Positions 4,448 to 53,495 of a DNA stretch of 53,495 nucleotides are shown here, one piece after another. Where the stretch lies: the NCBI GenBank assembly GCA_001714685.2, contig MDTP02000054.1, positions 1-53,495 of the forward strand. The letters run 5' to 3'. The notes below the pieces were generated by a model. The model did no database searches. It was not told the DNA's origin and saw nothing but the letters and a program-made list of their open reading frames with translations. The position numbers and the translations under genes are program-made. How positions within the stretch are numbered: position 1 is the first letter of the stretch; the number at the start of each line of letters is the position of its first letter. This stretch comes from Methanosarcina sp. Ant1 (lineage in GTDB: Archaea; Halobacteriota; Methanosarcinia; Methanosarcinales; Methanosarcinaceae).

Positions 4448-7018
4448 TTACTGCACACCCCTGAAATAATGCCCTTTGGTAAAGCCTTCTCCCTTATTCT
4501 CACACCTTTCTTTCCCCCACTTTCCGGTCTCAAGATAAGTATCAATTGCTTTCCTGTATGCTAAGGTTACTCTCTTTATTTCTTCGGCATCTTCCATTCC
4601 AAGGGTTTCTATCCTGAGACTTGAGACTCCGCTTTCGAGAAATGCAGGAACATATTCAAGCATGCAGAGAGACCTGGAATTGAGGAGATGCATTCTGCAC
4701 TTATAGTCCAGGATCAGGGGAAATTCGTAGTTTTTCTCATCTACCAGTGTAAAATTCCCGGACCTGCACGGGGCACCACACTGTCCCTTATCTTTCCCTA
4801 GCAGCCCGCCTACAAGACAGTGTTCGGATTCCATCAGTTCCAGGCGGCCGTGGACAATACATTCCGCAGGCCCGCAAGAAGCAATGCCTTTAAGTTCTTC
4901 AAGCGTCAGCTCGGGAGAAATTACAGCCATTTGAGCTCCTTCCTGCAAAAGAAGGGAAAAAGTATGGCTGTTAAATATATTCAAAGGACTGTCCGCAATA
5001 AAAGTAATTTTCTCTGTCTTTGCGAGATTGAAAGTCCCCAGGTTTGAGACAACGATACCGTCAGCTTCCAATTTCCTGGCAAGGGAGAGGACTTTTTTCA
5101 CGGATTTCATTTCGGAGTCTTTCGCAATCTTTGGGGTACTAAAATAGATTCTCCTGCCTGTGGCCCGTGTTTTTAAAACAGCGTCCTCAAAAATAATGTC
5201 AAGATCCTCAAGATCCTTTGCAGAACTATCTTTTTTTCCTGCTGTTTCTTGCCTTCTGAAAAGTCCTTCTCCGAAATATATGCAATCTGCCCCTCCTGCT
5301 AGTGCTGCTCCAAGCCCTTCTAAGGAATATACGGAAACAGATAGTGAAGGATGAATCGGAAGGTTTTCTGGAGCAGTTTTTTCTTCCCTCTTTCCTATTT
5401 TTTTTTCCGGTTCGGGGAATTTCAGGTTTTGAAGAGGTTTTCGCTTCCACTTTGATATCCTCAGGTATTCAAGTTGCTGGATCGCTTTTGTCCTCAGGTC
5501 GTTCAACTGCCCCATAGGAATAAAAATGTCCTCTTCCATACTCACATGAAATTCAACTGCCTCAAAAAGTGTACTTCCGAGCTTTGAAAGCTGTTTTTCG
5601 ATCTGGGCTTTTGAAGTGGGTTGCTTTTCCGCTTTCTCAACAAGATACTCGGATTCAATTGTTACTGCGTTTGAATCCCTGTCCTTTATCTCAAGCCTGA
5701 CAGGTCTTCCTGATGTAATGGTTGCTGTCACAAATACAGGAATCCTAGGACTCAGACTTCCGGATTCGCTTTCTTTTTTGAGGGACTCCATAAGCTTCTT
5801 GTCATGCGTCCTGTACACCGTTCCCCCGGATGGCGCTCTTGAATCAAAAGGAAGCTCTACTATTTCCCCCTTCCCTGCACTGTATACAGGGCCATTTTCG
5901 GTATACATTGAAGATATGATTTTCCCTTTGTCTTCAGGCCTGGTTTCGGCGTTTTCGACCATTATCCCGTCCCCTAGCCGGAGAGGGCGTGAAAGTTTTA
6001 CACGAATACGATCTGAACTCCTGTCGTATCCGACAACCGTGCCTGCCGGAATTCCACGGTTATGGGGGTTCTCCCTGCTCATGAGTTCCCCACATGGGTT
6101 TTCAAAAAAGTAGCCTTGGGTAAACCCCCGATTAAAAAGCTGGGTAAGCGTTTCCTGTTCTTCTTCGGAAACAGCATATCCTGCAGGATTTTCAATATAC
6201 CTGTCAATCAGACGGCGATAGATCCTGACAACCCCTGCGACATATTCCGGTCTCTTCATTCTACCTTCTATTTTGAAGGACTCGATTCCGGCTTCTATAA
6301 GGGCTCCCAGGCCTGAGATTATGTTAAGGTCTCTTGGACTTAAGAGATAGTCTCCACTAGTTTTGATCGATTTTCCTTCGCAGTACAGCCTGTATTTTTT
6401 CCGACATGGCTGGGCACAGTATCCTCTGTTTCCACTTCTTCCCCCTATAAGGCTGCTCAGGAGGCACTGGCCGGAATAGGAGATGCAGAGTGCTCCGTGT
6501 ATGAAAATTTCGATTTCAATCCGGCTTTTTTCTCTAATTCGTTTTATATTCTCTCTAATTCGTTTTATATCCTCAAGGGAGGACTCCCGTGAAAGCACAA
6601 CTCTTTCGATTCCTAGCTTATTTACAAACTCAACCCCTGCGCTGTTATGTAGAGTCATCTGCGTGCTTGCATGCAGCGGAAGGTCAGGCAGGTATTTTTC
6701 GGCAAGAGAAATAAGCCCAAGATCCTGAATTATAATTGCATCCACTCCTATTTCTCTCAGGCAGCAGAGCAATTTGAAGGCACTTTCGACTTCTCCGTCC
6801 TTAAGCAGAGTATTTACAGTTACGTAGACTTTCACACCTCTGAGGTGGGCATAGTCAATTGCTTCTTCAAGTTCTTCATTTGAAAAATTGGATGCATATC
6901 CCCGAGCACTGAAAGCCCGGGCTCCGAGGTACACGGCATCTGCTCCGTTTTCTACGGCTGCAATAAGGGCTTCCATACCGCCGGCTGGCGCCAGCAGTTC
7001 CGGTTTTTCAGAATTCAT
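4448..7018 (-). CDS. U32-family protein with two U32 units and a DUF3656-like middle
   Basis: A long member (856 residues) of the peptidase U32 family. The N-terminal unit starts with ELLAPAGGMEALIAAVENGA. It carries the U32 signature EIFIHGALCISYSGQC near residues 173-188, then GNRGYCAQPCRKKYR. A middle region (about 390-540) is compatible with DUF3656. A second, diverged U32 unit begins near 570 with its own cysteines (CIVHGRLELMESEHC, GQCGAPC). U32 proteins of this kind are now linked to tRNA/rRNA hydroxylation (RlhA, TrhP) with Fe-S cysteines rather than to proteolysis, so an RNA-modification role is more likely than a protease. That assignment is by family only. The ATG at 7018 has no strong ribosome site. 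The 46-nt gap to the DNPH1-like gene suggests co-transcription. Confidence 0.85.
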   Translation of the reverse strand: MNSEKPELLAPAGGMEALIAAVENGADAVYLGARAFSARGYASNFSNEELEEAIDYAHLRGVKVYVTVNTLLKDGEVESAFKLLCCLREIGVDAIIIQDLGLISLAEKYLPDLPLHASTQMTLHNSAGVEFVNKLGIERVVLSRESSLEDIKRIRENIKRIREKSRIEIEIFIHGALCISYSGQCLLSSLIGGRSGNRGYCAQPCRKKYRLYCEGKSIKTSGDYLLSPRDLNIISGLGALIEAGIESFKIEGRMKRPEYVAGVVRIYRRLIDRYIENPAGYAVSEEEQETLTQLFNRGFTQGYFFENPCGELMSRENPHNRGIPAGTVVGYDRSSDRIRVKLSRPLRLGDGIMVENAETRPEDKGKIISSMYTENGPVYSAGKGEIVELPFDSRAPSGGTVYRTHDKKLMESLKKESESGSLSPRIPVFVTATITSGRPVRLEIKDRDSNAVTIESEYLVEKAEKQPTSKAQIEKQLSKLGSTLFEAVEFHVSMEEDIFIPMGQLNDLRTKAIQQLEYLRISKWKRKPLQNLKFPEPEKKIGKREEKTAPENLPIHPSLSVSVYSLEGLGAALAGGADCIYFGEGLFRRQETAGKKDSSAKDLEDLDIIFEDAVLKTRATGRRIYFSTPKIAKDSEMKSVKKVLSLARKLEADGIVVSNLGTFNLAKTEKITFIADSPLNIFNSHTFSLLLQEGAQMAVISPELTLEELKGIASCGPAECIVHGRLELMESEHCLVGGLLGKDKGQCGAPCRSGNFTLVDEKNYEFPLILDYKCRMHLLNSRSLCMLEYVPAFLESGVSSLRIETLGMEDAEEIKRVTLAYRKAIDTYLETGKWGKERCENKGEGFTKGHYFRGVQ

Positions 7019-7454: not shown

Positions 7455-7567
7455 GGTCGTGTCCGTGAGTTATTGATCAAATCTGAAAAACGAGCAAATC
7501 TCCCTTTTTGGGAAAAATGTATAGAGATTCTTGTGCTTACGGTTTTCAATAACTCACACCTACGATC
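7455..7567 (+). mobile_element. 113-bp inverted-repeat element, family A copy 1
   Basis: Ends GGTCGTGTCC...ACGATC with an inner inverted repeat GAGTTATTGA / TCAATAACTC. About 110 bp are shared with 34547-34659 in the same orientation and with 10192-10305 and 51738-51852 in the opposite one. It has no coding capacity. The flanks show no clear target duplication, so this copy looks older. It is likely a non-autonomous miniature transposon. Confidence 0.75.
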
Positions 7568-7618: not shown

Positions 7619-7695
7619 CTAGTGCTTCGATTCCAAATTATGTCACAAACTAAACCTTTGAATTTAGATCAGGAAGTATTAGTGCACATACACTT
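7619..7695 (-). pseudogene. decayed fragment related to the pseudogene at 39017
   Basis: Read on the minus strand, about 75 bp match 39014-39095 at roughly 85-90% by eye. The corresponding frame (LILPDLNSK..., FVT, FGI) is broken by two stops. Similarity ends abruptly at CTAG. It is probably a duplicated and decayed piece of a gene rather than a functional repeat. Confidence 0.5.
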
Positions 7696-7806
7696 CTTAG
7701 CTAATCTCAAAAGAGTATATAAAACGCGGAAAGAGCGGAAAAAGGGAATTAAGGGATTGCGGGCACAGTTATCCGATTTTTGCTTCTCGATTTTTGCTTC
7801 GGGACC

Positions 7807-9857: not shown

Positions 9858-10030
9858 TCAGCATAGAAAATATGGTTATTCGTCATTCTCTATGGATAAG
9901 ATGATTTTCAATTCAAGACCGCGTTGGTTTTTATGAGGATATCCACACAAAAAAACGAAGAGCCGAAAATATTTACAATTTATGAATCTGGTTCTATTTT
10001 AAGAATGATGTTCAAAAGTGTAATTAACTC
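9858..10030. repeat. dispersed repeat family D, copy 1 (interrupted)
   Basis: Before the family E insertion this repeat read TCAGCATAGAAAATATTTAC and then a block ending GAATGATGTTCAAAAGTGT. It matches 28726-28796 with scattered mismatches. It is followed by the CGCGGAAAG hairpin here, whereas the 28.7 kb copy is followed by a 9-bp satellite. Confidence 0.75.
9874..9964 (+). mobile_element. 91-bp inverted-repeat element, family E copy 1
   Basis: The ends read GGTTATTCG...CGAAGAGCC. The core (TTATGGATAAGATG-type, then TTGGTTTTTATGAGGATATCCACAC) is shared with 25074-25162 and 52833-52922. It is flanked by a perfect 8-bp direct repeat GAAAATAT (9866-9873 and 9965-9972). Removing the element and one repeat restores alignment with the uninterrupted family D copy at 28.7 kb. 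This is therefore a real insertion of a miniature transposon. Confidence 0.88.
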
Positions 10031-10061
10031 ATCAGTTGGCTACAAGTTTAACGAAAGAATA

Positions 10062-10138
10062 AACCGCGGAAAGCGCGGAAAACGCGGAAGGATTGCCTGT
10101 GCCCCCTTTATTACGCGCTTTCCGCGCTTTCCGCGGTT
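10062..10138. repeat. CGCGGAAAG long hairpin, family B copy 1
   Basis: Two 25-nt arms (10062-10086 and 10114-10138) pair with one mismatch. The left arm begins AACCGCGGAAAGCGCGGAAA, and the 27-nt loop contains CTGTGCCCC. It is GC-rich in an AT-rich spacer. Similar arms with a GGGCACAG loop occur at 25382-25472 and, split apart, at 7721-7973. TTATAGAGTG follows the right arm, as it nearly does in the split copy. Confidence 0.8.
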
Positions 10139-10191
10139 ATAGAGTGCCTTGATTGGATTTCCTGCCGTCAATTTTCCATGATACAAGATCG

Positions 10192-10305
10192 GGTAGTGTC
10201 CATAAGTTATTTAAAATCATATGCGCAAGAATCTCTCTATATTTTTCCCAAATACGGGATATATACTCGTTTTTCAGATTTGATCAATGACTCGCGGACA
10301 CGACC
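10192..10305 (-). mobile_element. 114-bp inverted-repeat element, family A copy 2, with target duplication
   Basis: The ends are GGTAGTGTCC and GGACACGACC. It is flanked on both sides by the same 8-mer CAAGATCG (10184-10191 and 10306-10313), the mark of a transposition event. The interior matches the other three family A copies in reverse orientation. It has no open frame, so it would need a transposase in trans. Confidence 0.87.
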
Positions 10306-10637
10306 CAAGATCGAAAGTAAGTTAAATGGAAACTAGATGATCGAACAATATGGAAAAAAGATCGAAAATTTAGGCAATATATTGAAAATGACGCCTGGAA
10401 TATTGAAATTATATCATCGACAGGGAGTAAGTAAATTTGTTTAAGGATAGCATTCGGTTGAAGGACAGTTGGAGTTAAAGTCACTAGAGTTGAAGGGTTA
10501 TTAAGCTTGGATGATGATTAGATATTTAGATATAAGTGAAATCTTTTTAAGCCAGGGTAACAGCAAAACACATCTAACTGTTGAAAGGCAGTATTGAATC
10601 AAATGTTCAATATAAATTTTTAAGGAGTTTCTGAGGC

Positions 10638-11356: not shown

Positions 11357-13372
11357 ATGGCTTCAGCTGATTCTTATTTAGGGGATACTAAGCAAATGAA
11401 ATCACCAAAAAATTTAGTTGATGATGTTAATCCCTTTACGAATGAGACGAACTGGATTACAGGCGACATTCCGGTAACTATTTTCAGATTTTCAATTGGA
11501 TCCTCAGGAGCTGTACATTACTTAAGTAATAATGTTGAGGAACTAACCGGTTATCCTAAAACGGATTTTATTGACCAAAAATTATCCTGGGCTGATATTA
11601 TTTTCCAGGATGATAATAAATACTACGGTAAGGTTATACAGAAAGCAATTAAAAGCAAAACTTCGTATCAGGTTGAATATAGAATCAAAAAAGCGGATGA
11701 CAGTACGGTATTCATTCAAGAACAGGCCCATTTAGTAAGTGATGATAAAGGAAATATAACCTACATCGACGGGGTATTTTTAGATGTAACTCAACAAGTA
11801 AAAAAATATGAAGAATATCAAAAGATAATTATTAACAGGACGTCGAAGCCTTTACTTGTATATTTTGTGGATTCATCTAAAAAGATAAAATATATTAACA
11901 ATTATTTTGTAGAAACCTGCAATGTTAAAAATGCTGATGATTTAATTGGTCTATCGCCTTCTGATATTATAGAAAGCAGCACTTTAGCACGTAGTTCTAG
12001 AAATAGTAAATCAATCGCTGAAGAAGTATTGGAAACTGGGAAAGGTGTCTATAACATTGAAGGGTTTATTAAATTCAAGGGTGCGGATAAAGAGTTATTT
12101 GTAATGTGTTCCTGTGTGCCAATAAAAAATGAAGCTGGTATCTTGACCGGCAGTCTTATGGTTCTAACCGATTTGACAAAAATAAAAGAGAAAGAAAAGG
12201 AAATTCAGGATCTTTTAAACTATACTAACATCTGTTTAAAAGAACTCGGAGAAGGTATCAGAAAAGTTGGTGAGGGGCACCTTGATGTTCATCTGGATAA
12301 AATCAAGGACGATGAATTCGGTAAAACTTTTGATGAGTTCAATAGGATTATAAGTAATCTGAAATCAATTATTGAAAATACTATAAAAGATATGGCTCTA
12401 ACTCTGGAAGAGGCTCGGCGAGCAGAAGAAGCTGCTAATCAGGTTAATGTAGGCATGCAGCAAATTTCAACAGCTGCAGAGCAGATCTCAACCGGTGCAG
12501 AGAACCTTTCAAGGTATGCAGGCACAGCAGCTTCGGACGTAAAAGCTTCTCAGGAAATTTTCAAAAAACTGAGTCAATCTTCCAATAAATCTGCCAACTA
12601 TGCTTCACAGGCAGGTAAAAACAGTGACGAGACACAAAATCTCGGCAATATGGCTTTGGAAGATGTGAAACAGTTTGTTGAAGAAATCTCGAAGCTTGCA
12701 AACATTGTTCAGTCGTTAGATAGCGCAGTCAATAATATCGGTGCTGTTACAGGAAAAATCAAATCAATCGCTGACCAGACCAATCTCCTGGCTCTGAATG
12801 CGGCAATCGAAGCTGCAAGAGCCGGAGAACATGGCCGTGGATTCGCCGTTGTAGCTGATGAGGTCAGGAAACTTGCTGCAGATTCGAGGAAAAGCACTGA
12901 TGACATAAACGAAATCGTTACAAGCGTCCAGAAAGAGACCGTAAAAGTGACAGGAGCTATTGACAAAGCGCAGGTAGGTGCAGTAACCGTAAACAAGAAC
13001 ATTGCGCAGTCTTTGAATAAGATTCATGAGATTGCTAATGCAATAAATACGATAAACTCTATGCTGGCTGAACTGGATAAACTTGCAGAAGAAGGCTTAG
13101 TGAAAATCGAGAGTATTGATAAAAGCATTAGTGAGGCTGCATCAACTGCTGAAGAAAACGCAGCTAGCAGTGAAGAAACCTCTGCTGCCATTCAAGAACA
13201 GACAGCTGCATTGCAGCAAGTAACCGCATCAGCTCAGAACGTTAGCGGCCTTGCTCAGAAGACAGTCGACACGCTAATGGAAGAATTCAAAGTTTCGGCA
13301 GAAGAGAAGAGTAGTCAACGTTCTTCAGGGAAACTGCAAAATTTCGAGAGAAAGAAAAGTTTAAAGGTATAA
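11357..13372 (+). CDS. Soluble methyl-accepting chemotaxis protein, two PAS domains (copy 1)
   Basis: A cytoplasmic chemoreceptor that would control CheA through CheW. It has no membrane segment. PAS domain 1 spans about residues 35-150 (PAS_3-like, EYRIKKAD and GVFLDVTQQ) and PAS domain 2 about 155-278. A HAMP-like stretch at about 295-345 ([20 protein letters not shown]) follows. The coiled-coil signalling domain has its tip [20 protein letters not shown] near residues 472-492. The absence of a CxxCH motif argues against covalent heme. ATG 11357 is preceded by AGGAGAGTGGTA. The gene is a close paralogue of mcp2 at 16028; the signalling domains are nearly identical at DNA level, and even the promoter and 3' flank are shared. 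A TnpB element now lies between the copies. Confidence 0.93.
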
Positions 13373-13650: not shown

Positions 13651-14763
13651 ATGAAACGAGGAAACCGATATAGAATTTACCCAAACATGGAACAGAAAGT
13701 CCTTTTGGAGAAACACTTCGGCTGTACTCGTTTTGTCTATAATAAACTTCTCAATATTAAATCAACATTATATAAACAGTGTAGAATAAGTATTTCTGAA
13801 TTTGAACTTAATAATCACTTATTAGTTTTTAAAGAAATATATCCCTGGCTAAAAGAAGTTAATTCAGGAGCATTACAGCAAGCAAGTCGAAATCTTAATT
13901 CTGCATTTAATCATTTTTTCAAAGATGGATTTGGTTATCCTCAAAGAAAGAAGAAAAAAGATAATCGCTTCTCCTTTCAGCTTCCACAAAATTATGATCT
14001 AAATATAGAAAAATCTGAAATCAAGCTGCCTAAATTCGGTTGGATAAAAGTTAAAATACATCGAGATATTTTTCAGGGAGAAATGAAAACATTAACTGTG
14101 TCCAGAACTCCTACTGGAAAATACTATATTAGTATCTTAACTGATGATGAGGAAGCTTATCCGGAACCTGAACCTTTCTCTCATACAACAATGATCGGAG
14201 TAGATGTTGGTATTACTACTTTTGCAACATTATCAACCGGAGAGAAAATAGATAATCCCAGATTCTTGAAAACTTCTCTCGACAAATTAAAGTATTTGCA
14301 GAAAAGCGTATTAAGAAAAGTAATTGGTTCTAAAAACCGAAGAAAGGCAGTCTATAAACTTGCAAAACTGCACGAACTAATTTCTAACCAGAGAAATGAT
14401 TTTCAGCACAAGATTTCTAATCGGTTAATCAGCGAAAACCAAGCAATAGCCGTGGAAACTCTCAATATTCAAGGCATGATGAAAAACCACAAACTAGCAC
14501 AGGCAACCGGAGATGTAGGTTGGTATTCCTTTGTCCTAAAATTGCAGTATAAAGCTCAATGGTTAGGAAAAACAATTTTGAAGATTGGACAGTGGGAACC
14601 ATCCTCAAAAACCTGTAATGTTTGTGGTTATCATAATTCCAAATTAATATTAGATGTTAGAGAATGGCAATGTCCCGAATGTCAACTAATACATGATCGA
14701 GACATTAACGCTGCAATCAACATCAAAAAGTTTAGTTTAATCTCCGTAGGGACTACGGTTTGA
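13651..14763 (+). CDS. tnpB: TnpB (IS605 OrfB family), RNA-guided nuclease of a solo IS element
   Basis: RuvC-type endonuclease of an IS200/IS605-group element without its own TnpA (IS1341-like arrangement). The N-terminal helix-turn-helix part begins RYRIYPNMEQKVLLEKHFGC. The RuvC residues are intact: Asp in GVDVGITTFAT near 185, Glu in VETLNIQGM near 269, and Asp in HDRDINAAINI near 349-351. The zinc finger CNVC...CPEC spans about 321-344. The length of 370 residues is normal, and nothing is broken. A TATA-like TTTATAAACATATATA ends about 12 bp before ATG 13651 and no ribosome site is visible, so the message may be nearly leaderless. The element has landed in the 3' flank of mcp1. Confidence 0.93.
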   Translation: MKRGNRYRIYPNMEQKVLLEKHFGCTRFVYNKLLNIKSTLYKQCRISISEFELNNHLLVFKEIYPWLKEVNSGALQQASRNLNSAFNHFFKDGFGYPQRKKKKDNRFSFQLPQNYDLNIEKSEIKLPKFGWIKVKIHRDIFQGEMKTLTVSRTPTGKYYISILTDDEEAYPEPEPFSHTTMIGVDVGITTFATLSTGEKIDNPRFLKTSLDKLKYLQKSVLRKVIGSKNRRKAVYKLAKLHELISNQRNDFQHKISNRLISENQAIAVETLNIQGMMKNHKLAQATGDVGWYSFVLKLQYKAQWLGKTILKIGQWEPSSKTCNVCGYHNSKLILDVREWQCPECQLIHDRDINAAINIKKFSLISVGTTV

Positions 14764-15134: not shown

Positions 15135-16027
15135 TTTTCTTTTTCACCTGCTAAATGATTCTCTTTTCGTTAGATGATATTATTGTGATTTAATCTTAAT
15201 ACCGTCTCAACCTCCTTCGTTTTCCGTTGTTTATCATTAATGGAGTCGCCCTGCCAAAAGCACCAGAAAGTGGTCAAACCCGGATTTAACAGAAGCGTAA
15301 ATATTAGCTTATTAATGAGTTCCATGATTCTACTTCTGTCTTCCAATTCTAAATTATATATTGTATTTTTCTATTTTACATCTTTCATTTTTAAAAAATG
15401 ATGTTGTGAAAATATCAAGCATGTATAAGTGGACGATCTCGGTTCGCATCTATATTCAATTTAAAAAATTTCACTCTCACTCTTCCTAATAAATTTCATT
15501 GTTCGGGCAGAGCGAGATGATCCCATAAAGTCATAGATAACTCGAGATAAAACGATTTTGAATTTAATTGTCAGATGTTATACGACAGCAAATTCAGCTA
15601 TATAATATTTCTGTATAGAATAGGATTTACCACTTTGGAATAAGAATCAAACACAAGCGAGGTGATATAAACAGAAGATTATGTGTACTTAGGTTAGCGC
15701 TACTTTAGAATATATTTCTTTACATCACCTGCAGAACCAAATTTATGTGTTTACTTTTATATCAGTGAGCTCAACCCAAAAACAATTTTATTCTCAAATT
15801 AACAAGAGTTTCGGAACTATTTTTCATGATCAGAAACTCTATCGGTATTACAAATTAGAGATTTAAAGAAGCAATTTTGAGTTTTGGGGGTCAGCTCCAG
15901 TAATAAAAAATGGAAAAACTATTTGAAACGCCAGCTAGACGGAAGATTTTGTTTCACCTATAGATTTAAATACTTCTTATAATTATACATATAGTTAATA
16001 TATAAATAATTAGGGAGAGTGGTAAAA
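15135..16027. other. gene-free AT-rich region upstream of mcp2
   Basis: About 890 bp without a credible frame. The end nearest mcp2 holds its promoter: ATTTAAATAC at 15964-15973 as TATA box. The block TAGTTAATATATAAATAATT, identical to that before mcp1, comes just before the ribosome site. I see no repeat family from elsewhere in the window here. Confidence 0.55.
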
Positions 16028-18022
16028 ATGACTTCATCAGATCCTTGTTTTGATAAAGCCATGCTGAGTGACTCATCAAATAATTTAGTTGATGGTGTTG
16101 ATTCAGAGGCAAAGGGAATGAACTGGATAATAGAACATCTTCCTTTAACTGTTTTTAGAGTCTCGAGTAAATCGTCATGGGGGATAGAGTACATTAACAA
16201 AAATGTTGAGAAACTAACGGGTTATTCTAAAACAGATTTTATTACCCGGGAACTATCCTGGTTCGATATTGTTTTTCCCGAGGATGTTCCGATAATCGAA
16301 AAAACTGTAGAGAAAGCAAAGAGAAGCAAAATTTCCTATCAAGTTGAGTACAGGATCAAAAAATCTGATGGTGATACTGCATTCATTCTGGAAAAGGCTC
16401 ACTTAGTGCATGATAATAAAGGAAAATTGGCCTTTATCGAAGGGATATTTTTAGACGTAACTGCTCAAGTAAAACAAAGAGAAGATTCTCAGAAAGCGCT
16501 TATTAGCAGCATACCCAAACCATCAATTGCATTTTATGTGGACATGTCTGGAAAAATAAAGCACACTAATGATTACTTCTTAGAAATTTACAAACTTAAA
16601 AGTGTAGATGAAGCACTCGGCATGGAGATTCGCGACTTCTTGGAGACTGATACTAAAACGATTACTGAAAAAGTAATGGAAAGCGGAAAAGCAGTTCATA
16701 ACCAGGAGGCTTATGTTAAATTCAAGGTTTTAGATAAACCACTTTTCACAGCAGTTTCCTCTGTCCCTGTAATAGATGAATCTGGTGCCGCGATGGGTAT
16801 TTTCACGATCGTAACCGACATGACAGAGATGAAAGAGAAAGAAAAGGACGCTCAAGGCATTTTAAATTACTCCAACACTTGTCTGAAAGATCTTGGAGAG
16901 GGTATCAAAAAAATTGGGGAAGGCAATCTTGATATCCACTTAGAAAAAGTCAGGGACGATGAATTCGGTAAAACTTTTGATGAATTTAATAAGTTTGTAA
17001 TTAATTTGAAATTACTGATTGAAAGTGCTCTACAAGATATGACTATAACTCTGGAAGAGGCTCGGCGAGCAGAAGAAGCCGCCAACCAGATGAATATAGG
17101 CATGCAGCAAATTTCAACAGCTGCAGAGCAAATCTCTACCGGTGCAGAGAACCTTTCAAGATATGCAGGCACAGCATCTTCGGATGTAAAAGCTTCTCAA
17201 GAAATTTTCAAAAAGCTCCGTCAATCTTCCAATAAATCTTCAAACTATGCTTCGCAGGCAGGCAGGACCAGTGAGGAGGCCCAGGGTCTTGGCAATATGG
17301 CTCAGGAAGATATGGGGCAGTTTGCTGCAGAAATCTCGAAACTTGGAAACATTATTCAGTCATTGGATAACGCTGTCAATAATATCGGTGCTGTCACAGG
17401 AAAAATCAAATCGATCGCTGATCAGACCAATCTCCTGGCATTGAATGCGGCAATTGAAGCTGCAAGAGCTGGAGAATATGGCCGTGGATTTGCAGTTGTT
17501 GCTGATGAGGTCAGGAAACTTGCTGCAGATTCGAGGAAAAGCACTGATGATATAAATGGAATCGTCACAAATGTTCAGAAAGAAACTAAAAAAGTGACAG
17601 AAGCGATTGCCAAAGCACAGGCAAGTGTCGAAACCGGAAACAAGAACATTAAAAAGGCTTTGAGTAAGAGTCTTGAGATCACCAATGATGTAAATACAAT
17701 AAATTCTATGCTGGCTGAATTGGATAAACTTGCAGAAGAAGGCTTAGTGAAAATAGAGAGTATTGATAAAAGCATTAGTGAGGCTGCATCAACTGCTGAA
17801 GAAAATACAGCCAATAGTGAAGAAACCTCTGCAGCTATTCAAGAACAGACAGCTGCATTACAGCAAGTGAATACATCCTCACAGAATGTTAGCAGCCTTG
17901 CCCAGAAAACAGTTGACACTCTAATGGAAAACTTCAAAGTTTCGGCAGAAGGGAGAACCAGTCAAAACTCTCTTGGAAAACTGCAACACAGAGAGAGAAA
18001 AGGGAGTTTAAAGAAATACTGA
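16028..18022 (+). CDS. Soluble methyl-accepting chemotaxis protein, two PAS domains (copy 2)
   Basis: Paralogue of the receptor at 11357 with the same plan: PAS 1 (about 30-145), PAS 2 (about 150-275), a HAMP-like segment and a signalling coiled coil with tip [20 protein letters not shown]. It is also soluble. The PAS domains have diverged clearly more than the signalling half, which suggests a shared output with different inputs. ATG 16028 is chosen by analogy with copy 1 and by the GGGAGAGTGGTA before it; GTG 16019 is the alternative. The 92-nt gap to cheW contains no clear promoter, so this copy probably heads the che operon. Confidence 0.93.
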
Positions 18023-25073: not shown

Positions 25074-25162
25074 GGCTCTTGTTGTTTTGTGTGGAGATCC
25101 TCATAAAAACCAACGCGTCCTGAATTGAAAATCATCTTATCCATAGAGAATCAAGAAGAGCC
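25074..25162 (-). mobile_element. 89-bp inverted-repeat element, family E copy 2
   Basis: The ends are GGCTCTT...AAGAGCC and the core matches 9874-9964 and 52833-52922 in reverse. The flanking 8-mers are TTAATTAT and TTAATGTG, which share only the first five bases, so the duplication has decayed or been altered. It lies immediately after the che operon, where it could influence transcript ends. Confidence 0.8.
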
Positions 25163-25381
25163 TTAATGTGTGTTTTCGGACTTTGCACAAATATCCCAAA
25201 TTTCTTTTTATTCAACTGAGGTTTTGTCATTTTCTACCATAATCCTTATTTTCCAATAATATTAGATAATAAAGCTTATTTTGCGAAAAATTTAGCTTAA
25301 AACAACTTAAAAGCAATTTAATGTAGATTATGTCAATAATTTTAAATGAAGAGAGTTTTAATCGTTTAAAAACGAAAACGT

Positions 25382-28796: not shown

Positions 28797-28815
28797 CGTG
28801 AGTTCTCTATATAAT

Positions 28816-28899
28816 CAGATAAAGCAGATAAAACAGATAAAACAGATAAAACTGATAAAACTGATAAAACAGATAAAACTGATAAAACAGATAAAACAG
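28816..28899. repeat. 9-bp tandem repeat, about nine units
   Basis: Units cagataaaa and ctgataaaa alternate irregularly for about nine copies, followed by a partial cag. It starts 20 bp after repeat D. Microsatellite-like; no coding role. Confidence 0.92.
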
Positions 28900-29035
28900 A
28901 AACCAAATTATCGACTTAATTTCGCAACTATTTTCTTAAACATTTGAAGTACTTCCAAAATGTTTGGATAAATTATAAGGAGGGGAATGTTACGGCTCTG
29001 GAAAACCGTAACCCTTATCCTGCATCCGTCAATGT

Positions 29036-34546: not shown

Positions 34547-34659
34547 GGTCGTGTCCTTGAGTTATTGATCAATTCCAAAAAAGCGAGTACATCTCTCGTA
34601 TTTGAGGAAAATGCAGAGATTCTTGTGCTTACGGTTTTCAATAACTCACACCCATGACC
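34547..34659 (+). mobile_element. 113-bp inverted-repeat element, family A copy 3
   Basis: The ends are GGTCGTGTCC...ATGACC with the inner pair GAGTTATTGATCA / TCAATAACTC. It is the closest match to copy 1 (the right-hand 35 bp are almost identical). No target duplication is visible. It lies between the dtdA promoter and the glnA 3' end. Confidence 0.78.
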
Positions 34660-38968: not shown

Positions 38969-40055
38969 TTTTACCTCAACGAATTATATACTCTTTTGAG
39001 ATTAGCTAAGGAATGTATGTACACTTGTACACTAATACTTCCTGATCTAAATTCAAAGATTTGGTTTGTGACATACTTTGGAATCGATTTACTAGAACTT
39101 AATAAGTTCGATGAAAAAGCCGAGCTTATCTATGAATCCCATAAGGAAGAATAGTAGAAGTTATACAATGGTAAGATAATAGCCATAGATATTGATGATG
39201 CTGATGCTAATGACCTTGAATCTGTTGGGAGCACATTGGAGATGTCGGTCTAGAGGCAAGGAGAGAGCAACCGGGTCATCAGATATTCATGCGCAGAGCA
39301 AGGAAAAATCTTGCCGTCGCCAGACTTTCGCGATTTTTCAGTAAAGTTAGTTCAGCCTCAAATTCTTTTCTATACTGCGGCTTAACCTTCCTTTAATTTC
39401 AAAGATATTTTAAAGTTAACTTCAAAAAAGAGAAGCTGTTTTCAAAAAATGATATGAAAAATAAACGGCCTTTTCAGATTTTTTCTTAAATTCTAACGAG
39501 TCTTCTGAGTTTTCTAGGCTGGAAGATGATATTCCCGGAAATCTTACAGAAATTCAGTAATCATGGAAAAATAACAGCCACCTATTCTATAATTTAAGAT
39601 TTATATTTTTTTAAAAAAATGGCTCAATCATATAATTAGTTATTTTAAAAAACAGATACTACAATTTAAGTTACAATTATACTTCTATAGGGGCGTTTTC
39701 TGAGCAATTTTTGTATTTATCTTCCTATATTTATTTATTATAAAATAACTAAATATTATATATAAGTTATGTATAAATGCAGTATTTTTACAAGAGCCTG
39801 CAAAGACTATATTTAACTCACTACACTAAATAATATTATCAAAATCAGACATTATAAGCCAAATTAACATTATGGATTTCGCTTTTATTTTGCAATGAAT
39901 GCTTTTATTTTACAGGAATGATTCTACAGATCTTGATTTTTTAAATTAATTTTTGCAGATTGTTGGCTGAATTACTTACGAAAGATTTATATTCTTATGA
40001 ATGATATTCTTATCGTTAATATAATAGTCACGCTATCAAGAATGGGTGATTTATT
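38969..40055. other. long spacer upstream of arlB1
   Basis: Contains the pseudogene at 39017-39253. The remaining 800 bp is AT-rich without credible genes and ends in the archaellin promoter: AAAGATTTATATTC at 39981-39994 is the TATA box, followed by GGGTGAT before ATG 40056. The length of the spacer suggests room for regulator binding at the archaellin promoter. Confidence 0.55.
39017..39253 (+). pseudogene. small gene remnant with two in-frame stops
   Basis: One frame of 79 codons begins ATG TAC ACT, reads LPDLNSKIWFVTYFGIDL and LNKFDEKAELIYESH, hits two adjacent TAGs, and continues in the same frame as LYNGKIIAIDIDDADANDLE to a TAG. The sense on both sides of the stops suggests a decayed gene. 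A more decayed fragment of its 5' part lies at 7619-7695. The FDEKAELIY...GKIIAIDI pattern is vaguely like DUF2283 proteins, which is a weak guess. Confidence 0.5.
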
Positions 40056-48735: not shown

Positions 48736-51345
48736 TTACCTTACAATTACAACAACCGTACCGCTAACTTCAAGCACATCGACTTCCCGGCCGCCGGAGA
48801 TCACTTCTTTTCTTATCTCCACGGCTTCGGATTCGAGCTCAATTTGCTGGCCATTTACAGTAACGGTTATTTTTCCTGAAGTTGCCTGGGCTTCAAGAGC
48901 TGCAGGATTCTCTGCCTGGAGAGCTTTTACAACAGCGCCTGCATCCTTCCTGAAAAGCGGCCCAATAAGGCCCATGTTGGGCTTAACTTCAATGGGCACA
49001 TATTCAAAGGATGGAGCACCCTCCATTAACTCAACTTCAGAGTTCGTAGCGCCTGCAATATCACCTGTATCGATATTTGCACTATATATCTCGATTTTTT
49101 TCAAGGGGGCGTTGAGGGCCATTCCCAGGTCGGACTTATACCTGCGGACTTCACTCGTAATTTCCTTAATAAGCTCTCCTGCAGCTTCGGCTTCTTCGCT
49201 GATGAGACTTTCATCGATCGTGGGCCAGGCTTGTGTATGGACGCTTTCATTGCTAAACCTTGAATACAGCTCTTCTGCAAAAAAAGGTATAAAAGGCGCA
49301 AGCAGGAGCGAGAGAGTTTTCATTGTCCTGTATAGGACATACTGCGCTGCTTTTTTTCCTTCCGGCTTGTCCCCGTAGAGCCTGCCTTTCACGAGTTCCA
49401 GATAGTTGTCAGCAAGAACTTCCCAGGAAAAGCCCCTAATAGCCTTGAAAGTGGAATCAAACTGGTATCCATCAAACTCTTTCGTGGCAGTCTCTACAAG
49501 TCGGTTAAGTTTGCTTAGAAGCCATCTGTCAATTGTAAAGAGGGAATCCAGGGGGAATTTTTCTGCGTCTTCGGGCCCGAAATCCTTTAAGTGGGACATC
49601 GAGAAACGATAGATACTCCACATCTTCTGCAGGAAGCGAGAAGCTGAAACCACATCTTTCCAGCGGAACATTACGTCCGAACCTGTGGAGCCGCCAACTG
49701 CTCCCCACTGCCTGAAGGCATCGGCGCTGTACTGTGAGGTCACTTCTTCGGGGGAAATAACGTTTCCAAGGGACTTGCTCATCTTATGGCCGTCTGTCCC
49801 GAGCACCATGCCGTTGACCATTATAGAATCCCAGGGTCTCTTGCCTTCAAGGGCCAGGCTCCGGAGGATCGTGTAAAAAGCCCATGTCCTGATGATATCA
49901 TGCCCCTGTGGGCGGATCTGTGCAGGTAGGCGGAGTTCGTGCTCGCTTTCCCAGCCAGTAACATGTAATGCCGTAATCGAAGAATCCATCCAGGTATCCA
50001 GGACATCGGTCTCCGGTTCAAATTCGGTTGAGCCGCAGATACAGGCTTTCTTTGGGGCTGCTTCGTTTGGGTCAATCGGGAGCCAGCTTTCTTCTGAAAT
50101 CATGACCTCCCCGCACTGCTTACAGTACCAGATCGGAATTGGAGTTGCAAAGATTCTCTGCCTGGAAATGCACCAGTCCCATTCCATAGTGCCTGTCCAG
50201 TTCTGGAGCCTGACTTTCATATATTCAGGGTACCAGTTAATCTCGTCTGCAGCCTTCAGGATGCCTTCAGGGTTGATCTTCACGAACCACTGGGGTTCGG
50301 AAAGGATTTCTATTGGGGTGTCACAGCGCCAGCAGAGCCCGACATTCTGCTCAAGAGGCGTCTGGTTGTACACAAAACCCACAGTTTTCAGGTCGGAAAT
50401 GACAGCTTCTCTGCACTCGGTTATGCTCATGCCTTCGTACTTGCCTGCCGCTTTTGCCATCTTCCCCTGTTTGTCGATAGCTTTTACAAGGGGCAGTCCG
50501 TACTTTAGCCACCAGCGCACGTCCTGCTTGTCTCCGAAAGTACAGATCATTACCGCGCCTGTACCGAACTCAGGTTCAACAGCTTCATCAGCAATCAGAA
50601 CCACGTTCTGCCCGAAGATGGGGACTGTAATTGTCTGGCCAATGTATCGGCTATAACGCTCATCTTTAGGGTTTACTGCAACTGCAACGCAGGCTGCCAT
50701 CAGTTCTGGCCTGGTGGTTGCAATGTCAACTTTATCGAAGTGGACAAAGTTAAGTTTTGTTTGTCCTGCATCATACTCTACTTCTGCAAAAGCAATGGCA
50801 GTTTCGCAGCGAGGGCACCAGTTAACAGGGTGTTCTTCATGGTAGATATGGCCGTCATTGTACATTCTGACAAAGGACTTCTGTGTCTTTACGAAGTATG
50901 AAGGCTCCATGGTTACGAATTCGTTGCTCCAGTCCACAGAAAAGCCCAGACGCAGCATTGTTTTACGCATCTTGTCAATGTTTCCTTCCGTGAGTTCCCT
51001 GCACATCCTCCGGAATTCTGCACGAGGAACCTGGTTTTTAGTGATCCCGTGAATTTCTTCAACCTTAACTTCTGTTGGAAGACCATGACAGTCCCAGCCC
51101 TCGGGGAACATCACATTGTACCCTCGCATGCGTTTGTATCGGGCAACAAAGTCAATATAGCACCAGTTAAGCGCGTTTCCGATATGGAAATTGCCTGTAG
51201 GATAAGGAGGTGGGGTGTCGATAATATATTGGGGGCGGGTATCCTCTCCCCAGTTGAAGTGGTACATGGAGAGGTCCCACTTCTCCATCCACTTTTCCTC
51301 AACCTCATTTGCATTATATTCTTTTGGAATTTCTGATTCTGTCAT
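48736..51345 (-). CDS. valS: Valyl-tRNA synthetase
   Basis: Charges tRNA-Val. It is a class I synthetase with HIGH motif PTGNFHIGN at residues 48-56, a long editing (CP1) domain near 150-350, zinc-type cysteines (CPRCE, CWRCD, CKQCGE), and KMSKS motif HKMSKSLGN near 522-530. The anticodon domain follows, and a short C-terminal part (about 790-869) ends in VVIVR. The length of 869 residues is usual for archaea. GGAGTG precedes the ATG and a TATA box lies near 51408-51419. Confidence 0.97.
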
Positions 51346-51737: not shown

Positions 51738-51852
51738 GGTCGTTGTAATGAGTTATTGAAATCCGTAAGCACTAGAATCCCTCTACACTTCCCTCAAATA
51801 CAGGAGATGTACTCACTTTTTCGGAATTGATCAATAACTCATATACACGACC
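51738..51852 (-). mobile_element. 115-bp inverted-repeat element, family A copy 4
   Basis: The ends are GGTCGTTGT...ACACGACC, in the same orientation as copy 2. The flanking 7-mers AATGTTA and AATTTTA differ in one base, which may be a decaying target duplication. The interior (GAGTTATTGA, CCCTCAAATACAGGAGATGT, TCAATAACTC) matches the family. Confidence 0.75.
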
Positions 51853-52766: not shown

Positions 52767-53495
52767 ACGGTACTGTCAAGTCTACGGGGGATATACAATT
52801 TATAGGTCAGAGTGTAGCTGGAAAAAAATTCTGGCTCTTCGCTATTCCTTATGGATAAGATGCTTTTTCAATTTACCCGTATTGGTTTTTGTGATGATAT
52901 CCACACGAAACAGCGGAGAGCCAAAATTCTTATTCCCTGTAGACTTGACAGAACCTGCCGATGTTTAAGAATATCTGTATCTCACTGAGGGACATAAGTT
53001 CAAAAATTAAAACCAATAAGACAGTAAAAATGTAGTGAGGAACTTCCAAGCCGCAGAGCAGCCCCGCGAGCTGTTTCAGGGCTCATTTCCGCCCCTGACT
53101 TCAGGACAGAGGAATGGGAACTCATTCCCTGGACTTTCCAGCCCAGGCTCTGGAGCTTTTCAATGGGCAGCTCGTGAGTATCTTATATTGTCAAAATCCT
53201 GTATCTCGGGAGAATTTCCAGGAGCATAAAAGGGCTTAAGATGCTAAGAGGCTGTCTTAAAATTCAGGTCATTTCGGGTTTACTCATGGTTTAAAAACGA
53301 TAGCAGCAAAACATTGCTATTTGTTTGGGTAAGTCCCATTCCATAGACCCTAGAAAGGTTTTAAAAAACACCATCATATAACTTGATTGAGGATTTACCT
53401 ATTTTTACTATCGATTACCTAGTACCATGACAACTTAGTTGTGAGTCATTTATATACTTTGAGTTCTTTTTATATCTCATGTTAAATATTAATCT
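52767..53495. other. gene-free right end
   Basis: Contains the family E element at 52833-52922 and a GC-richer stretch (53035-53225) with several inverted repeats, for example GGAATGGGAACTCATTCC and CAGCCCCGCGAGCTG. No accepted gene. The frame at 53035-53229 is Gly/Ser/Pro-rich and has no ribosome site. Confidence 0.5.
52833..52922 (+). mobile_element. 90-bp inverted-repeat element, family E copy 3, with target duplication
   Basis: The ends are GGCTCTTCG...CGGAGAGCC. It is flanked by a perfect 8-bp direct repeat AAAATTCT (52825-52832 and 52923-52930). The core TTATGGATAAGATG and TTGGTTTTTGTGATGATATC match copies 1 and 2. It has no coding capacity. Confidence 0.88.

Follow-up and report, generated by a model that had tools for sequence, protein, structure and literature searches.

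A stretch of 53,495 nucleotides from Methanosarcina sp. Ant1, which is referred to here as the window and corresponds to contig C54 of assembly G000 (a 4.29 Mb genome in 342 contigs), carries several short repeats, and these raise the question of whether they are mobile elements and which enzyme moves them. An earlier note, made from the letters of the window, had proposed a miniature transposon family with four copies of 113-115 bp at 7455, 10192, 34547 and 51738. All four were confirmed, two in each orientation and all between genes (Table 1), and none contains an open reading frame of gene length, in agreement with the lack of coding content that had been claimed. We hold with high confidence that these repeats are a genuine IS1-family MITE of Methanosarcina, which has no gene and is most likely moved by an IS1-type transposase.

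Table 1. MITE copies and flanking target duplications in the window
Feature	Positions	Strand	Length	Remarks
MITE copy 1	7455..7567	+	113 bp	flanks 3/8 alike, target duplication gone
Left target duplication of copy 2	10184..10191	.	8 bp	CAAGATCG
MITE copy 2	10192..10305	-	114 bp	symmetric-end subtype (GGTCGTGTCC.../...GGACACTACC)
Right target duplication of copy 2	10306..10313	.	8 bp	CAAGATCG
MITE copy 3	34547..34659	+	113 bp	asymmetric-end subtype, intergenic; 3/8 flanks, no duplication left
MITE copy 4	51738..51852	-	115 bp	flanks 3/8 in 8-bp register

Within the window, a peptidase U32-like gene (4448-7018, - strand) has copy 1 in the intergenic space on its upstream side, and an isoleucyl-tRNA-synthetase-like gene (48736-51345, - strand) has copy 4 upstream. 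Copy 3 repeats both ends of copy 1, the left over 36 nt (D15, 89%) and the right over 46 nt (D12, 93%), and copy 2 matches the subtype-2 consensus at 87% across its full length. The perfect duplication described for copy 2 was borne out, with CAAGATCG on both sides. The near match reported for copy 4 lacks support in the 8-bp register of the family, where its flanks agree at only 3/8 positions; in a 7-bp register they read AATGTTA/AATTTTA, a 6/7 match that may or may not be a duplication.

Curation of fetched loci across the genome yielded 79 two-ended copies, 64 of which measure 113-115 bp (115 bp, n=28; 114 bp, n=22; 113 bp, n=14). The MITE is about 115 bp long, with the end pattern GGTCGTG-N5-GAGTTATTGA, terminal inverted repeats of about 20-22 bp and a consensus terminal pairing of 7 + 12 bases. 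One end of a typical copy reads GGTCGTGT-NNNN-GAGTTATTGA and the other GGTCGTGG-GTGT-GAGTTATTGA, from which the ends of copy 2 differ (GGTAGTGT, with the inner motif worn at one of them). The common ends with an inner inverted repeat that the earlier note described are indeed shared among copies, although the two ends of an element are not identical.

The number of copies was estimated from end-pattern and BLAST counts, which do not amount to a complete catalogue. A BLAST search with copy 1 against its own genome returned 40 copies at E < 2e-22, and 157 candidates were obtained initially, a part of them unscored. The end pattern at up to 3 mismatches occurs at 205 sites in G000 versus 9 for a reversed-pattern control and, given 1.75 detectable ends per copy, the end count translates into approximately 112 elements. 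The genome probably holds about 110-160 copies in total. Size-defined copies are present genome-wide as well as genus-wide, and the expectation of hundreds was somewhat too high. A window of this length would be expected to contain 1.4-2 copies, so that the four observed represent a mild local excess.

Among Methanosarcina genomes, 28 of 31 contain a match to the MITE. Ends at no more than 1 mismatch number 110 in G000 versus 0-13 in the other 30 genomes, and G000 is an outlier in MITE copy number, part of the gap reflecting sequence divergence since the end pattern was built from G000 copies. When 84,980 species genomes were scanned for the exact pattern, matches came only from records labelled Methanosarcina or unclassified Euryarchaeota, and the same type of scan gave no match in viral contigs.

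Evidence of movement comes first from the flanks. Perfect 8-bp duplications border 23 of the 79 curated copies, with a chance expectation of 0.06% each as judged from mismatched flank pairs; six more copies have duplications of exactly 7/8 (mismatched flank pairs, 0.5%), which brings those with at least 7/8 to 29 (0.6%). A lack of duplication at all other copies, which would have spoken against a transposon, is not the case, as many copies in G000 and in the relative G013 are flanked. The insertion targets are AT-rich, and their positions 1 and 8 favour C and G, respectively (roughly CAAATTTG-like). In the complete genome of G013, the identical 115-bp MITE sequence is found at five loci with unrelated flanks, four with perfect and one with 7/8 8-bp duplications, which indicates recent transposition in that genome.

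The surroundings of copy 2 provide a further line of evidence. This copy was inserted inside a dispersed repeat (...TTTTCCATGATACAAGAT...), a paralogue of which on contig C72 of G000 (approximately 11994-12096) has neither the element nor the second duplication; the alignment across the copy-2 junction shows 86% identity over 101 nt (E 2.6e-26). Two other paralogues, on C57 (L137) and C126 (L247), hold an oppositely oriented MITE at exactly the nucleotide of the 10192 insertion, which suggests target reuse or inversion. The comparison of empty sites between strains that had been proposed was thus successful for a paralogous unoccupied site in the same genome, whereas exact orthologous junctions between species were unalignable. 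For copy 2, no cross-species unoccupied site was found, the surrounding intergenic DNA not being conserved in relatives. For a copy on C76, the element is absent near the conserved upstream gene in four relatives, where the right flank is unconserved and no exact junction is seen. Taken together, the target duplications, the identical copies at unrelated loci and the unoccupied site show that the element is mobile.

An insertion sequence with the same terminal 20 bp, which the earlier note had recommended looking for, does exist. An IS1-family element of about 1.2 kb with the same ends is present in full length in four relatives, and in G004 its right end matches bases 1-20 of the MITE consensus without a difference (E 6e-07). 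Its transposase is split between two frames, ORFA and ORFB, at a run rich in A (A8GCA7 in G009; L078 780-812 and L088-L091), the kind of site at which classical IS1 joins its frames by -1 frameshifting. The two frames stand in a -1 relation in G008, G009 and G004, but each G013 copy has one base less at this putative frameshift site. The second frame matches Pfam PF03400 DDE_Tnp_IS1 (29.5 bits vs a cutoff of 24.1), and both frames match NF033558 transpos_IS1 collinearly, at scores below its whole-protein cutoff. The ends of the IS start with GG, and perfect 8-bp duplications border eight of its copies (five in G008, two in G013 and one in G004), the G009 copy having no clear duplication. The few IS targets resemble the MITE targets in base preference.

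The G000 assembly (342 contigs) of the host yielded no intact IS copy, only partial or degraded ones. A left part remains on C68, a right part that contains one stop is located at a contig edge on C240, and further remnants lie on C105, C197, C65, C160 and C211; MITE-like ends are recognizable on those of C105 (GGTCGTTTCCTTGAGTTATTGA), C197 (GGTCGTGTCCGTGAGTCATTTA), C240 and C68. The partner IS of the host may be dead or lost, or an intact copy may be hidden in an assembly gap. A search of plasmids for the IS transposase returned distant relatives only, with about 25-28% identity to the best full-length hits. On C240, a spacer of precisely 8 bp (TAAAATTT) separates the right end of the remnant from that of a neighbouring MITE (L121, 417-447), an arrangement that would fit the use by one element of the other's duplicated target.

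From the shared ends, duplication length and target preference, we infer that the MITE is mobilised in trans by an IS1-family transposase. The enzyme of the 1.2 kb element would most likely bind both MITE ends and insert the MITE into AT-rich 8-bp targets, giving rise to the 8-bp duplication; the copies that survive are located almost solely between genes.

Whether this IS is the true partner can be questioned on account of one end type. A GGTCGTGG-GTGT-GAG type end is present in 44 of the 79 copies and is matched by none of the IS ends seen, from which it could be argued that another, undetected IS with such an end moves the family. The block between the two conserved end motifs is, however, variable among IS copies too (CCCC, CCTC, CCGT), and in duplication length (8 bp) as well as target preference the family agrees with the IS1-family element, so that we regard a different partner as unlikely. 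The common ends could likewise mean that the MITEs arose from the IS1-family element by internal deletion (type I MITE), but we consider this origin quite unlikely. Alignment to the IS is confined to the outer 16-20 bp, the remaining matches being chance-level 10-mers (E ~0.6), and the interior, which is conserved in all species, is unrelated to the IS. Such an interior speaks rather for a type II origin or for some unknown parent. Since simple internal deletion does not account for such an interior, the element that we attribute to IS1-type mobilisation is best called a type II MITE.

The position and folding of the copies bear on a possible role for the host. Only 1 of the 79 copies lies inside an open reading frame of at least 150 codons, compared with 65% of random windows, and this intergenic bias would reflect selection against hits in genes, with AT-rich targets contributing somewhat. 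Hairpins are predicted in all four window copies (MFE -26.9 to -39.4 kcal/mol, z -2.9 to -6.0 vs shuffles), and the mean folding z of 20 sampled copies is -4.2. The earlier suggestion that each copy adds a long hairpin to transcripts is accordingly a possible outcome of the predicted folds for any copy that is transcribed. One may go further and speculate that a hairpin core kept genus-wide at near-fixed size marks a partly domesticated IS1-type MITE that serves the host, a proposal that we judge very unlikely; if true, the hairpin might, for instance, direct RNA processing or end transcription.

Another reading sees a non-mobile or domesticated structured RNA family (regulatory RNA or bidirectional terminators), with the hairpin as the selected feature. 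Folding that is better than in shuffles and the nearly exclusive intergenic location are in keeping with it, as is a slight excess of two-sided changes at the inner pairs of the consensus fold (34 vs a shuffle mean of 20 and maximum of 32). This covariation is weak, though, and could be produced by subfamily relatedness, and the palindromy is partly due to the inverted ends. RNAalifold predicted no consensus structure from the 79 aligned copies, and an Rfam search of the window gave nothing at E up to 0.1. Given the weak covariation and the RNAalifold result, selection for RNA structure is not claimed. Where both neighbouring genes were identified, the context is tandem in 23 of 36 cases with no clear convergent bias, and a promoter and terminator scan around copy 2 gave no signal inside the element, the models being bacterial and of little value for an archaeon. 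With the duplications, identical copies at unrelated loci and unoccupied site all indicating mobility, a structured RNA family is highly improbable. A REP/BIME-like extragenic palindrome, which is defined without target duplication, is ruled out by the clear 8-bp duplications.

The MITE read as an IS1-family element has several known counterparts. That of the partner IS is the IS1 family itself (e.g., ISAba3-like elements with 24-bp ends GGTGGTGTTTCAAAAAGTATGCTG and 8-bp duplications; PMC6382973), with which it shares the GG-starting ends, the 8-bp duplications, an IS1-type DDE transposase and, apparently, coding split over two frames at an A-run. It differs from curated IS1 in its divergent archaeal transposase, each frame of which falls below the NCBI whole-protein cutoff, and in its ends (GGTCGTGTCC...). 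Methanosarcina MITEs have been described before, and they are alike in being short, non-coding and multicopy with IS similarity confined to the ends (Kamoun et al. 2013, PMC3852290, Table 4). Those families range from 89 to 418 bp and belong with IS5, IS1634, IS1182, IS630, ISL3 or IS200/605 (PMC3852290), and none among them is an IS1-family MITE of about 115 bp with 8-bp duplications (Kamoun et al. 2013, PMC3852290). MITEAba12 of Acinetobacter is a close parallel, with 113 bp, no gene, partner-IS identity in the terminal repeats alone and a spread across a whole bacterial family; its partner ISAba12, 9-bp duplications and GGCTTTGTTGC ends set it apart (PMC6382973). It reaches 1-22 copies per genome (PMC10969869), compared with the approximately 110-160 estimated here. 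A 2024 review makes no mention of Methanosarcina (PMC10969869). We provisionally regard this MITE as undescribed, its kind of element being well known. The catalogue of archaeal mobile elements gains a genus-wide IS1-family MITE with high copy number in one genome, and as this MITE can be paired with one particular full-length IS of its relatives' genomes, trans-mobilisation becomes directly testable in a methanogen.

Other repeats were observed in the window. A dispersed palindromic repeat lies at 10043-10138 (CCGCGGAAAGCGCGGAAAACGCGG...), copy 2 sitting in one of its members, and many partial copies of it occur in G000 and in the relative G024. Directly downstream of copy 1 is one member (7619-7722) of a repeat of about 105-110 bp, the other member of which (38984-39095) is in the opposite orientation and about 90% alike (I1, I8). 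A family of about 85 bp occurs in both orientations at 9867-9956, 25081-25167 and 52826-52912 (I2, I7, I10, D14), and it is possibly the other miniature family of the earlier note. Short tandem repeats are found at 28804-28918 (D3) and 145-364 (D2), the repeat unit being 9 bp in the former and 16-17 bp in the latter, and a TnpB-like (IS200/IS605-type) open reading frame at 13651-14763 is flanked by a related pair of chemoreceptor-like genes (11357-13372 and 16019-18022).
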